The notes under the pieces: generated by a model | What the model was told of the DNA's origin: nothing | Databases searched by the model: none | The model's input: only the letters and a program-made list of their open reading frames with translations | Assembly (NCBI RefSeq): GCF_900106765.1 | Contig: NZ_FNNG01000011.1 | Span: forward strand, 1 to 64,000 | DNA from: Tepidimicrobium xylanilyticum | GTDB taxonomy: Bacteria > Bacillota > Clostridia > Tissierellales > Tepidimicrobiaceae | DNA length: 64,000 nt | Reading direction: 5' to 3' | Part shown: one piece after another, positions 11,864-17,601 of the stretch | Numbering within the stretch: the stretch's first letter is position 1 | Layout: every line of letters starts with the position of its first letter | Position numbers and translations under genes: made by a program

Positions 11864-12574
11864 CTACTCTACAGCGGCATTTGCCTTTTTGCTTTTGAAA
11901 TAATATCCAACACCCCATTTGGTATGAATGTATTGCAAATTGTTAGGATCCTCCTCTATTTTTTCCCTCAAGCGCCTTATATGAACGTCTACTGTTCTCA
12001 AGTCTCCAAAATATTCATATCCCCAAATGGTTTCCAACAATTCCTCTCTAGTAAATACCTTTCCTGGATTGGAAACCAGTAAGTAAAAAAGATCAAATTC
12101 CTTTCCTGTTAATGTAATGCTTGCATCCCCTTTGGTCAGCCGTCTACCCAGTGTATTTATTATAAAATCATCTATCTTGACTATTTGGTTTTCAAAATGA
12201 AAATTCTTCATATTTGCTCTTCTAAGGATTGCTTTGATTTTAGCCTTTAGTATTAAAATATTGATAGGCTTTGTTATATAATCGTCAGCACCATATTCTA
12301 AGGCCAGTATTTTATTTACATCATCTTGTTTTTCCGTTAGAACTATTATAGGTACTTGAGAGTTTTCTCTAATGGTTTGACAAAGATTCAATCCATTTCC
12401 ATCTGGAAGTACTAAATCCAATATTACTAAGCCATAGTCCTTCTTCTTTATCTTATCCTTGCTCTCCTTAACAGTGAAAGCGGATTCCACAATGTAATTA
12501 TCTTGTTCCAAACTATATTTTAACCCCTTAAATAATAGTTTGTCCCTATTAATAACTATAACTCTAGTGCTCAT
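11864..12574 (-). CDS. OmpR/PhoB-type response regulator, orphan, atypical receiver
   Basis: DNA-binding response regulator of 236 residues; ATG at 12574 is preceded by GGAG 8 bases upstream. The receiver domain (1-115) keeps the phospho-acceptor D53 (VILDLVLPDGNG), T80 and K102. The acidic pair that binds magnesium is not present: where VDDE is usual it has IN-RD (N9, R10). The C-terminal winged helix has normal signatures (LTGKEFDLFYLLVSNPGKVFTREEL, TVDVHIRRLREKIEEDP, GVGYYF). No histidine kinase is encoded nearby. It begins 26 bases after selB on the same strand, so it is probably co-transcribed with the selenocysteine genes. Its targets are unknown. Confidence 0.85.
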   Translation of the reverse strand: MSTRVIVINRDKLLFKGLKYSLEQDNYIVESAFTVKESKDKIKKKDYGLVILDLVLPDGNGLNLCQTIRENSQVPIIVLTEKQDDVNKILALEYGADDYITKPINILILKAKIKAILRRANMKNFHFENQIVKIDDFIINTLGRRLTKGDASITLTGKEFDLFYLLVSNPGKVFTREELLETIWGYEYFGDLRTVDVHIRRLREKIEEDPNNLQYIHTKWGVGYYFKSKKANAAVE

Positions 12575-12599
12575 CGTTCTCACTCCAAAACAAAGGTAA

Positions 12600-14516
12600 T
12601 CACCTGGTATTCCCAACAAGCATTCTTTTATCTCCATCCCTTTTGGTTATTTTTAGTTGGTCAAAATATTCAAGTAATGACAGTGCAACTTTTCTATTGG
12701 TATTTAATACATCCCTATATTGAGCTACAGTAATAGAGCCGTTTTCCTTAATATAGTTCTTTGCTAGTTTAATAGCCTCTTCGAAAGCAGCTTGATGGAT
12801 ATAGACTTCCTCATTTAATTTTACTATTTCTCCCATACTAACTAAATTATTTATTACTTCCTCTACCTCATTAGAATTAGGGTCTATATTTATTAATTCT
12901 TCTTTTCTCGGAGGTAAAAAAGCTTTTTCTTTAAAAGATTCAATTATTTTATTCTTGATCTTTATCTGATAGTCTTTGTATTCCACTTTAAAGCCTTTCT
13001 TAAAAATGTTCTCTCTTTTCTGCTCTATTAACCCCATTTCAATTAATCGATCTAAAAACAACTCTCCTACTCGGTTTGGTGCTTTACTTAATAATCTACT
13101 CCTCATCTCTTCTTTGGGAATCCCTATTCTCAAAGGATATCTTTCATGATAGATTTCCATTTCTTTTATTATCTTTTCAGTTAACATATTGAAATATTCT
13201 ACATGAATTACATGGATGTCCTTTGTTAGTTTAAAAGGAATTATCTTTTCAGATTCTATTAATCTATCTATATCTTCCTTTACCTTTTCCTCTAACATGG
13301 CAGTATTTGTAGATATCTCCCTAATTGTAGGGAAATGTTGACTTTTATCCAGTACTATCCTTTCAATTATATCTATAGACTTACCTGCTTCCTTAATTCT
13401 AAGCTCTTCTAATGCCTTCTCGTCAAAGGGTTGCTTTTTGGTTGGATTAGGTTCTAACACCTGTCCTCCTCCTATGGTGAACATAGGAGAATAAAATCTT
13501 AGAATGAATCTATCTCCTCTTTTAGCCACTGTTTTTTCTTCCAACCTTAATTGAGCATAAGCTTCCTCTCCCGGGTTCAATACTTCTTTATCTAGGAGCA
13601 CTATTCTGCATAGAATTTCCTTAGTTCCTATATATAGCCTAAGCCTAGTCCTATTCATTATAGGCCTGTTTATATCTTTAATTAGCCTTACCTTTACATC
13701 CAGCATCAATGTATCCTTCATAGAATCTTTAGGGGCAATAACATCTCCTCTTTCAACTTCTTCCTTTTTTATCCCTGCCATATTGATTGCCACCCTCTGT
13801 CCAGCATAAGCAATATCTGTATCTTGTTCATGAACCTGTAAATTTCTTATTCTAGCTAATTTATTTCCAGGGAAAATCTGCACTTCATCTCCGAGCCGAA
13901 ATTTCCCAGATAACAGAGTCCCAGTTACTACCGTTCCAAAGCCTGCAATGGAAAAGACTCTATCTACAGGTAGTCTGGGAGTATCATCCGTTTCCCTATC
14001 TTCTAACTCTAAAGCCAATTCATCTATCAGCTCAATAACTTTGTCTAAGCCGGTTTTTTTAACAGAAGATACTGGGACTATTGGGGCATTTTCCAAAAAA
14101 CTTCCCTTAACCTCATTTTTTATATCTTCTTTAACCAATTCTAACCATTCTGAATCTACTAAATCGGATTTGGTTAATACCACAAATCCTTTCTCAATCC
14201 CTAATAGGTCTATTATGGCTATATGCTCCTTAGTTTGAGGCATAACCCCTTCATCTGCTGCTACTACTAGTAGTACTATATCCATACCCGTTACTCCAGC
14301 TAGCATATTCTTAATGAATCTTTCATGTCCTGGAACATCGATAATCCCCGCCCTTCTACCACTGGGTAGGTCAAAATAGGTAAATCCCAATTCAATGGAA
14401 ATACCCCTATCCTTTTCTTCCTTCAACCTATCCGTATCTCGCCCTGTTAGAGCTTTTATGAGAGTAGTCTTTCCGTGGTCAATATGACCAGCAGTTCCAA
14501 TTATTATATGCTTCAT
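12600..14516 (-). CDS. selB: Selenocysteine-specific elongation factor SelB
   Basis: GTPase of 638 residues that brings Sec-tRNA to in-frame UGA codons marked by a SECIS hairpin. Start: [18 protein letters not shown] with ATG at 14516-14514. G1 GHIDHGKT, G3 DVPGHERF and G4 TKSD are present, and the region [15 protein letters not shown] is typical of SelB rather than EF-Tu. The C-terminal half (about 370-638) is the set of winged-helix repeats that bind SECIS RNA. The ATG overlaps the selA stop (ATGA), indicating translational coupling. Length is normal for bacterial SelB. Confidence 0.96.
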
Positions 14517-15943
14517 TTGATGCACCCTTTCAATTTATTAAATCCATAGGATAATCCATCTGCTACAATATCCAATTCCTCATCCCTTACAGTCCTCAAA
14601 TCTATGAATAAATGGTCCTTATATACCCTTGTTATAATTGGAATCTCGTATTCTCTTAAAGCCTTTTCTAAATCGATAATGCTGTTTTCTCTTAAGCTAA
14701 CCATAATACATTTAGTAGGAATTCTTTCTAAAGGCAAGGAGCCTCCACCTACTTCAGAATAATTATCTACTATCTCTATATTATAGTTACTGTAGTCTAC
14801 ATTTTCCACAATACTATTATATAATCTACTAGCTTTTTTCTCCAACTCATCCAAACTCATGGAAAGCATTTTCAAAGTTGGGATTTTTTCTACTACTGTA
14901 CTTTCATCTAAATATAGTTTTAAGGTAGCTTCTAAGGCTGATAAAGTAAATTTATCGACTCTAAAAGCCCTCGTCAAAGGATTTTTTTTCATAATATCTA
15001 TATACTCTTTCTTTCCTACTATAATACCCGCTTGAGGACCTCCAAGCAACTTATCGCCACTAAAGGTTACAATATCTACGCCATTTTTAATGGAATCCTG
15101 AACTGTAGGCTCGTACTCCAATCCAAATTTAGTTAAGTCTATAAGAACTCCACTACCTAAATCCTCAATTAAGGGTAGATTATATTTTATCTTAAGAGCA
15201 TATAATTCCTCTGCAGAAACAGAAGAGGTAAATCCTAATATCCTATAGTTACTAGTATGAACTTTCAATAAAGCTCCAGTTTCCTCGTTAATCGCATTCT
15301 CATAATCCCACATATGGGTTTTATTGGTAGTACCTACCGATTTTAAAATAGCACCACTCTGCTCCATAACATCAGGGATTCTAAAAGAACCACCTATTTC
15401 GATTAATTCACCTCTAGATACTATTACCTCTTTCCCTTTAGCAAGGCTACTTAAAACTAATAGCACTGCTGCTGCATTGTTGTTAACTACCATTGCATCT
15501 TCTGCCCCGGTTATTTCTACGATTATATCCCTTAGATGGCTATATCTTTCTCCTCTTTCTCCTCTTTCTAAATCATATTCCAAATTGGAGTAGTTAATAG
15601 CTATTTCCTTAACATTTTCCATAACCTCTTCGCTAATTAATGATCTACCAATATTGGTATGGATTACTACCCCCGTTCCATTTATCACCCTTCTCAACTT
15701 AAAGGAGTTTTTTTTCTTTGCTCTTATTTCTACAAGTTTTATCAGGCTATCAATCCTATTAATAATCTGATCTTCCTCTAAGGATTTCTCCTTTATACTC
15801 TGTCTTAATAAATCTATTTCCTCCCTAATGGAGTCAACCACTATTTTCCTTGGCATTGCTTCTATAAGCTTTTTAATATTCTTATTTTCTAGTATCTCAT
15901 CTACTTTAGGTATTAGTTTAAATAAGTTTTTTTCTTTCTGCAT
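14513..15943 (-). CDS. selA: L-seryl-tRNA(Sec) selenium transferase SelA
   Basis: PLP enzyme of 476 residues that converts Ser-tRNA(Sec) to Sec-tRNA(Sec) using selenophosphate; cytosolic, decameric in known cases. Motifs: RRVINGTGVVIHTNIGRS, the NNNAAAVLLVL substrate-site region, EDLGSGVLIDL, and the PLP-lysine region VTFSGDKLLGGPQAGII. It starts 13 bases after the selD stop with AGAGAGGG as ribosome site, and its stop overlaps the selB start. Nothing appears missing. Confidence 0.96.
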   Translation of the reverse strand: MQKEKNLFKLIPKVDEILENKNIKKLIEAMPRKIVVDSIREEIDLLRQSIKEKSLEEDQIINRIDSLIKLVEIRAKKKNSFKLRRVINGTGVVIHTNIGRSLISEEVMENVKEIAINYSNLEYDLERGERGERYSHLRDIIVEITGAEDAMVVNNNAAAVLLVLSSLAKGKEVIVSRGELIEIGGSFRIPDVMEQSGAILKSVGTTNKTHMWDYENAINEETGALLKVHTSNYRILGFTSSVSAEELYALKIKYNLPLIEDLGSGVLIDLTKFGLEYEPTVQDSIKNGVDIVTFSGDKLLGGPQAGIIVGKKEYIDIMKKNPLTRAFRVDKFTLSALEATLKLYLDESTVVEKIPTLKMLSMSLDELEKKASRLYNSIVENVDYSNYNIEIVDNYSEVGGGSLPLERIPTKCIMVSLRENSIIDLEKALREYEIPIITRVYKDHLFIDLRTVRDEELDIVADGLSYGFNKLKGCIK

Positions 15944-15956
15944 ATTATCCCTCTCT

Positions 15957-16988
15957 TTATTCTACTATTAAATAACAATCTTCCTTTTCTACTACCCTTC
16001 CAATAATTCCATATTTGGTGTTAATATTTTCTAATCCCTTTAACAGCTTTTCTGCTTCAATTTCTGGTAAGCTTATAAGTAACCCACCAGACGTTTGAGG
16101 GTCGTATAGTATATCTTTAATTTCTTCTGGAATATCACCAACAAACTTTACATTATCTCCAACATGCTTCCTGTTGGAATAAGCTCCTGCTGGTACCAAT
16201 CCCATTTGTGCATATTCTATTGCCTTTTCTATTATAGGCACTTTTTTATGGTCTATTTTTATGGTAACTTCACTTCCCTGAGCCATTTCTAAACTATGCC
16301 CTAATAATCCAAAGCCTGTAATATCCGTTACGCTATTAACCTTTACCTTATCCATTGCTTCCTTTGCATATTTATTTAAGGTGCTCATAGTTAAAATGGC
16401 CTCCTCATAAGCCTCCTTATCAACTAAATCTCCTTTTATGGCGGTATTAACAATTCCTACACCTATTGGCTTTGTCAAAATCAATAAATCCTCAGGTTTT
16501 GCATTGCTATTGGTTAAAACCTTTCTTGGATCTACAAATCCAGCAACTGATAAACCATATTTTGGTTCTTCATCCTCCACCGTATGCCCTCCTACTAGTA
16601 TAGCCCCAGCTTCCTTTACCTTGTCATGTCCTCCTTTTAAAATCTGAACTAATACATCGGGGCTTAAACAGTTAGGAAAGCCTACTATGTTCATTGCAAG
16701 TTTTGGCTCTCCACCCATGGCATAGACATCACTCAATGAATTAGCTGCTGCAATTTGCCCAAATAAATACGGGTCATCTACTATAGGGGTGAAGAAATCC
16801 AATGTTTGGATTAAAGCTAATTCATCATTTATCCTATAAACTGCTGCATCATCAGCAGTATCTAACCCTACTATCAAACTATCATCTACAGTTTTAGGTA
16901 GTTGGCACAAGACCTGTGCTAATATATCGGGACCGATTTTGGCTGCTCACCCTGATGTTCTCGACAATTGAGTCAATTTTTTCTCCAT
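15957..16988 (-). CDS. selD: Selenide, water dikinase SelD, a selenoprotein (UGA = Sec at residue 14)
   Basis: Makes selenophosphate from selenide and ATP, the selenium donor for SelA. Conceptual start is ATG at 16988 behind AAAGGAGTGAAATAG; the frame reads [13 protein letters not shown]-(TGA)-AAKIGP and continues into [18 protein letters not shown] and the rest of SelD to 15957. The TGA at 16949-16947 sits where SelD proteins have their catalytic Cys or Sec, next to the essential Lys of the (C/U)xxK motif (Lys17). So the gene needs its own product pathway for translation. Plain ORF calling starts at a later TTG near 16910 and loses the active site. Total 344 codons including Sec. ATP-binding motifs [15 protein letters not shown] and ITGFGLLGH are intact. 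It lies 13 bases after comEA. Confidence 0.95.
16905..16949 (-). promoter_or_regulatory. Sec UGA codon and bacterial SECIS-like hairpin in selD
   Basis: The UGA is at 16949-16947. Downstream on the mRNA, GCACA-GGUCU-UGUGC (16919-16905) forms a stem with loop GGUCU, preceded by A, giving AGGUCU. This matches the apical loop of the E. coli fdhF SECIS as I recall it. The loop GGU begins 32 bases after UGA, within the distance reported to work in bacteria. A second small hairpin (AUCG-GUCC-CGAU) begins 9 bases after UGA. Which one SelB binds is not certain from sequence. Confidence 0.7.
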
Positions 16989-17001
16989 CTATTTCACTCC
17001 T

Positions 17002-17601
17002 TTATTTAACTGTAATCAAATCCTTTATGCTTTCAAACTTTTTACTACCTATGCCAGATACGTTCATAATCTCCTCTATAGTTTTAAAAGGAGAATGTTT
17101 TCTGTACTCTATAATCCTTTCTGCTAAAGCCTCTCCTACTCCCGGTAAAGAAATTAGTTCTTCCTTGGTACAGATATTGATATTTATCTTCCCTTCGCCA
17201 CTGCTAGTTAAATAAGAACTGGAAAGATCTGCAGATATATCTTCCCCTATTTTGGGTACATGTATTTTCTCTTCATCTGATAACTTCCTGGCTAAGTTTA
17301 TTTTATCCGAGTCTGCATCTTTTTTCAATCCTCCCGCCAAATTAATTGCATCAATTACTCTTGAACCTGCCTTTAGCTCAACTATTCCCGGGTTATAAAC
17401 CTCACCGCTTACATGGACTATAATATACCCCGCTTCATCATTGTCAGTTTCTTCCATCTCCTTTAATATTTCCTCCACTTCTTCTGAATTTATATCCCTC
17501 TCCGCTAATAGATTATTACTTATATAATTGAATATGGATATCAGAAAGATTAGAATTATGATGAATATTATAATTACCTGTTCCCTTCTGGAAAAATACA
17601 T
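17002..17601 (-). CDS. comEA: ComEA-like helix-hairpin-helix DNA-binding protein
   Basis: 199 residues: a short basic start and one N-terminal membrane anchor (about 8-28), an acidic linker, a SLBB domain (YIIVHVSGEVYNPGIVELKAGSRVIDAINLAGG), then two helix-hairpin-helix motifs (ISLPGVGEALAERIIEYR, and MNVSGIGSKKFESIK). This is the layout of the competence DNA receptor ComEA, which binds incoming DNA at the cell surface. No comEC is seen in the window. It is the first gene before selD (13-base gap), an odd partner for selenium genes. Its 5' end faces the divergent dacF-like gene across 154 bases. Confidence 0.88.
   Translation of the reverse strand: MYFSRREQVIIIFIIILIFLISIFNYISNNLLAERDINSEEVEEILKEMEETDNDEAGYIIVHVSGEVYNPGIVELKAGSRVIDAINLAGGLKKDADSDKINLARKLSDEEKIHVPKIGEDISADLSSSYLTSSGEGKININICTKEELISLPGVGEALAERIIEYRKHSPFKTIEEIMNVSGIGSKKFESIKDLITVK

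Follow-up and report, generated by a model that had tools for sequence, protein, structure and literature searches.

Is the interrupted selD gene of Tepidimicrobium xylanilyticum, with an in-frame TGA close to its start, the gene of a selenophosphate synthetase that is itself a selenoprotein? The gene lies on the reverse strand of the window, by which we mean the whole stretch of 64,000 nucleotides that was analysed (positions 1 to 64,000 of contig NZ_FNNG01000011.1). A preliminary description of this DNA had proposed that SelD is a selenoprotein, that the TGA occupies the position of its catalytic residue, that standard ORF calling removes the active site, and that selenium use is thereby autocatalytic. 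Our results leave little doubt that the window selD encodes a Sec-containing SelD, in which UGA would be decoded through SelB, a downstream hairpin and Sec-tRNA-Sec. The features on which this conclusion draws are collected in Table 1.

Table 1. Features of the selD region, with positions in the window
Feature	Position	Strand	Basis
selD, selenophosphate synthetase, 343 aa, predicted Sec at residue 14	15957..16988	(-)	frame, family score, structure alignment
codon 14, in-frame TGA (UGA), predicted to be read as selenocysteine	16947..16949	(-)	frame and conservation in relatives
Shine-Dalgarno-like GGAG	16997..17000	(-)	read from the sequence
TTG, start in the mechanical ORF list	16908..16910	(-)	ORF list
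likely SECIS hairpin, GCACA-GGUCU-UGUGC	16905..16919	(-)	folding, covariation, class draw
selA, L-seryl-tRNA(Sec) selenium transferase	14513..15943	(-)	TIGR00474, 632.9 bits
selB, selenocysteine-specific elongation factor	12600..14525	(-)	TIGR00475, 373.8 bits
comEA-like gene, directly upstream neighbour, not part of selenium use	17002..17601	(-)	TIGR01259/TIGR00426

The reading frame bears out the preliminary description. An ATG at 16988-16986 follows the GGAG at a spacing of 8 nt, and the TGA, in the context TSG-U-AAKIGP, is codon 14 counted from it. With TGA read as U, a single frame of 343 residues stays open to 15957, codon 14 being its sole TGA. This frame is that of an intact SelD: it scores 408.4 bits against TIGR00476 (selD; cut-off 125) and covers profile positions 1-308 of 311, starting from residue 4. 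The mechanical ORF list gives a shorter selD (15957-16910, 317 aa), which starts at a TTG 26 codons late and, as had been claimed, is devoid of the active-site segment.

Alignment of the conceptual N-terminus with SelD proteins, the check that had been suggested for this locus, places residue 14 opposite Cys in two deposited chains, 3u0o (E 6.4e-75, aligned residues 4-314 of 343) and 2yye (E 4.7e-69, from residue 5). The former we take to be the E. coli enzyme. Over these residues the window protein aligns with a Cys-type SelD such as 3u0o; it differs at position 14, with the predicted Sec here and Cys there. The motif U14-A-A-K17, with Lys at +3 from the catalytic Cys/Sec position, corresponds to the UxxK motif, which an excerpt of PMC13188914 describes together with the N-terminal selenium-binding loop of SelD. 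In family score, in the predicted placement of Sec within this loop and in U-A-A-K, the protein matches the Sec-containing bacterial SelD (TIGR00476; UxxK), from which it does not differ in any of the features tested.

The same evidence bears on whether translation might in fact begin at the internal TTG at 16910 and yield a protein of 317 residues that lacks the active-site segment. Such a start is what mechanical ORF calling returns, and we regard it as extremely unlikely. The segment preceding the TTG is conserved, G-U-x-x-K being present in all 89 TGA-containing loci described below, and it is included in the solved SelD chains 3u0o and 2yye, although in a third SelD structure, 2zau, the match begins only at query residue 35. 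Moreover, the GGAG stands before the ATG at 16988, and the TTG begins within a hairpin loop, its first base being the last base of that loop.

The Sec-containing reading is further supported by the relatives of this gene. We assembled 90 SelD rows, namely the window's own locus, 70 named loci from a scan of genome contigs and 19 loci from genomes of the same family; since six family rows repeat named ones, 84 rows are distinct. At the catalytic position, 89 of the 90 rows have TGA, the sole exception being TGT in Anaerocolumna aminovalerica (L032), and this degree of conservation excludes chance occurrence. The nearest named records belong to a Tissierellia MAG (90% identity) and to Clostridium sp. 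Cult1 and Cult2 (83%); SelD of [Clostridium] ultunense DSM 10521 is 82% identical to that of the window. All 20 family genomes, own included, have one TGA-containing SelD each, and other matches of the SelD search in these genomes reach at most 39.7 bits.

The codon was also followed across the class in a draw of 293 genomes, own included, for which at least 90% completeness was requested. At a threshold of E <= 1e-40, SelD is present in 71 of them with 73 genes, 43 of which have one TGA and 30 no stop. The 72 genes other than that of the window have TGA (42), TGT (19) or TGC (11) at this position and no other codon. A Cys copy at E <= 1e-40 is absent from 41 of the 42 genomes with a TGA-type SelD (own included), so that, as far as this threshold shows, sole dependence on Sec-SelD is the rule among the TGA-type genomes of the class sample. 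Two TGA copies occur in one genome of the draw (G092), and TGA-type and Cys-type SelD (L160 and L130) are found together in another (G161). A Cys-type selD altered by a nonsense mutation or misread through a sequencing error would require a single base change, TGA being one base from both TGT and TGC. Given the same TGA in 19 other family genomes and in 43 of the 73 class-draw genes, such an origin is next to impossible.

Does the organism have what is needed to read UGA as selenocysteine? The genome comprises 3.0 Mb in 38 contigs (the window being part of contig C11) and is rated 100% complete and 3.56% contaminated. SelA, SelB and tRNA-Sec all occur in it together with SelD, which is what a bacterial selenoprotein gene requires. 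The tRNA-Sec, on contig C17, scores 75 bits (cut-off 47) and has the anticodon UCA according to ARAGORN; a second tRNA-Sec match above the cut-off (C2, 50.1 bits) proved to be tRNA-Ser by the same program. Two GrdA genes and one FdhA gene each have one in-frame TGA; in one GrdA, the only context inspected, it reads CFV-stop-TAAGA. In view of the tRNA-Sec, SelA and SelB, and these other TGA-containing genes, UGA is very likely decoded as Sec in several genes of this genome.

The genes for GrdA, glycine reductase selenoprotein A, are located at C8:20091-20525 (L110) and C4:17200-17634 (L111), and for both a GrdB-family match lies no more than 1.5 kb away. Long GrdB-family matches were observed at C8:20591-21631, C4:14764-15807 and C1:379476-380522, in frames of 353-361 aa with no stop within the match; a Sec codon close to the C-terminus, if there is one, would fall beyond the Pfam match. 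Selenouridine synthase (TIGR03167), which also consumes selenophosphate, had no match in the genome at E <= 0.001; of 14 control genomes, 7 gave a match in the same search.

A Cys-type selD elsewhere in the genome had been named beforehand as an observation that would speak against a Sec-containing SelD. Besides one SelD copy, the genome search returned a single weak match (25.8 bits), and no Cys-type backup was found. The protein behind the weak match scores best against HypE (108.6 bits, cut-off 251.6), reaches 62.9 bits against selD (cut-off 125) and falls below every curated cut-off listed; it was discarded as a second SelD. A sole SelD of the Sec type poses a start-up problem in principle, and Cys is common at this position (30 of 73 genes in the class draw). 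Both points would fit readthrough of UGA outside the Sec pathway, inserting for example Trp or Cys, at least to the small extent that would start the loop without SelD. With the full Sec pathway in the genome, we consider such readthrough very unlikely.

Selenocysteine insertion by the known bacterial route would call for a SECIS element behind the UGA. The hairpin at 16919-16905 has 5 bp and a 5-nt apical loop, GGUCU, which is separated from the UGA by 32 nt. In excerpts of PMC13188914, the bacterial SECIS model has a stem of 4-16 bp, a loop of 3-9 nt, a distance of 16-37 nt from UGA to loop, a G within the first two loop positions and an MFE of at most -7.5 kcal/mol. The hairpin lies within the limits for stem, loop, guanosine and spacing. 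It was predicted in all three folded stretches, whose MFE values of -7.1, -7.9 and -10.6 kcal/mol are borderline with respect to the model, and its stability is not above that of shuffles (z-scores 0.11 to 0.34 in the three stretches). Scanned against Rfam at gathering scores, the window gave no SECIS family and only two tRNAs, both tRNA-Leu according to ARAGORN; the hairpin therefore rests on folding and on comparison with relatives. Since single-sequence folding is unconvincing, it is the comparison, both through covariation and through the contrast between TGA and Cys genes, that makes the case.

The 84 distinct rows, which include the Cys-type A. aminovalerica row, were scanned for stems of 5 bp that close loops of 3-8 nt. 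The position of the hairpin came out joint best, the tie being a part of the same hairpin shifted by one base. All five pairs are present in 49 of the 84 rows; in 200 shuffles, which are uncorrected for shared descent, the mean was 16.9 and the highest count 24. The complete hairpin occurs in 33 of 36 rows with at least 58% identity (shuffle mean 22.9, maximum 26) and in 16 of 48 rows below 58% (shuffle mean 2.2, maximum 6); the covariation is mostly found within the closer relatives. The middle pair takes all four Watson-Crick types (A-U 34, G-C 13, U-A 8, C-G 5), in addition to U-G (3) and G-U (1). In some loci, such as L098, L099 and L020, compensation comes with an amino-acid change on one side, GCA..TGC turning into GCG..CGC/CGT and Cys into Arg. 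Compensatory changes that alter the protein argue for selection on the RNA. The Cys row has two of the five pairs.

The class draw provides the contrast. The complete hairpin was found in 24 of the 42 other TGA genes (shuffle mean 10.2, maximum 16; 500 shuffles) and, at this place, in none of the 30 Cys genes; three Cys genes fall one pair short of it. The Fisher p for this difference, 6.6e-8, is uncorrected for shared descent, and most of the Cys genes stand further from the window gene than the TGA genes do. This contrast is a further argument against a Cys-type gene that acquired its TGA by mutation or error. The truncated TTG start, the nonsense mutation and the sequencing error were all rejected. 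To judge from the sequences compared, the hairpin is most likely the SECIS of the Sec-containing selD, which would place it within the coding region, as in other Sec-containing bacterial SelD genes.

In the remaining 18 of the 42 TGA genes, the complete hairpin is missing at this place. A nearer stem, considered as an alternative SECIS and defined by a loop that starts 14-20 nt after the UGA and by at least 5 pairs, is present in 21 of the 42 (11 having both stems) and in 10 of the 30 Cys genes, a loose definition that discriminates poorly between TGA and Cys genes. Ten of the 18 have the nearer stem and eight have neither. In the window gene, the longest nearer stem has 2 pairs, and two of the three folds show a stem of 4 bp whose loop lies 13 nt after the UGA. 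Six TGA-type loci (L162, L171, L182, L185, L189 and L190) lack a complete hairpin at +28 and have a nearer stem, for example AGGGCC-GGA-GGTCCT. Thus, the position of the SECIS may differ within the selD gene family.

Only 13 nt separate selD from selA, and the end of selA is overlapped by selB, which suggests that selD, selA and selB constitute one operon. The comEA-like neighbour scores 102.8 bits against TIGR01259, below the cut-off of 152.35, and 60.1 bits against TIGR00426, above the cut-off of 53.1. We searched the 70 named loci, many of them on short contigs or distant, with the SelA, SelB, ComEA and response regulator of the window. A selA starting 1.0-1.1 kb after the selD start, right behind it, is present in 20 of the 70, followed by selB in 19, and the order selA-selB-selD is seen in 7; the remaining loci are no evidence of absence. 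The order comEA-selD-selA-selB is a local arrangement, common to a part of the relatives. In the ORF list, the 3' end of selB is overlapped by a response regulator frame (window 11864-12637, reverse strand). Of the 70 named loci, 15 have a response regulator match immediately after selB.

With the Sec codon at position 14 of the leading gene of this tight cluster, the UGA might conceivably act as a selenium sensor for the whole pathway, beyond making one Sec; we consider this unlikely. For E. coli fdhF, an excerpt of PMC4513850 gives recoding of UGA by about 30-40% of ribosomes and a requirement for sufficient selenium. If this holds here, selenium shortage would cause many stops at codon 14, and expression of selA and selB would perhaps be lower.

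How, then, would such a SelD come to be made? Going by the established pathway, ribosomes would start at the ATG and reach the UGA at codon 14, where SelB carrying Sec-tRNA-Sec would bind the hairpin and insert selenocysteine as the catalytic residue. The resulting SelD would produce selenophosphate, to be used by SelA for Sec-tRNA-Sec, which in turn would be required to make the next SelD, glycine reductase A and formate dehydrogenase. The loop may be kept running by the lineage, each cell inheriting SelD protein at division. To call this use of selenium autocatalytic is a fair description of the dependency in logical rather than kinetic terms, and a need of SelD for selenium in its own making would follow from what is established about the pathway. 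The novelty that the wording implied is not supported: the self-dependence of SelD was reportedly posed already in 1996, in a title by Guimaraes et al. Earlier work is also said to have dealt with the Sec-SelD of Haemophilus influenzae and with the selDABC cluster of Eubacterium acidaminophilum. Among bacterial selenoproteins Sec-SelD is a standard one, known for decades, and the idea of self-dependence is old; only this member is new. A literature search combining Tissierella, selenocysteine and selenophosphate returned, by title, nothing beyond selenium feeding of hens.

Other sources point the same way. Passages of PMC1794560 name FdhA and SelD as the most widespread selenoproteins, include SelD among those of Clostridium difficile and describe SelD as supporting 'both itself and selenouridine synthesis'. 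Selenophosphate synthetase is among the experimentally verified selenoproteins in a section of PMC13188914. According to parts of PMC4561486, 19% of the SelD genes found in the reference set used there are Sec-containing, with Sec always at the same position and Cys in the rest; bacterial SECIS elements of Sec-containing SelD genes are mentioned as well. Eukaryotic SPS2/SEPHS2 is likewise a selenophosphate synthetase that, in the same parts of PMC4561486, is generally itself a selenoprotein.

For annotation, the locus shows how ordinary ORF calling shortens selD, with loss of the active site. For the biology of the organism, it offers a clean case in which the only SelD found in the genome would depend on its own product, a state that appears to be the usual one for TGA-type SelD in the sampled class.
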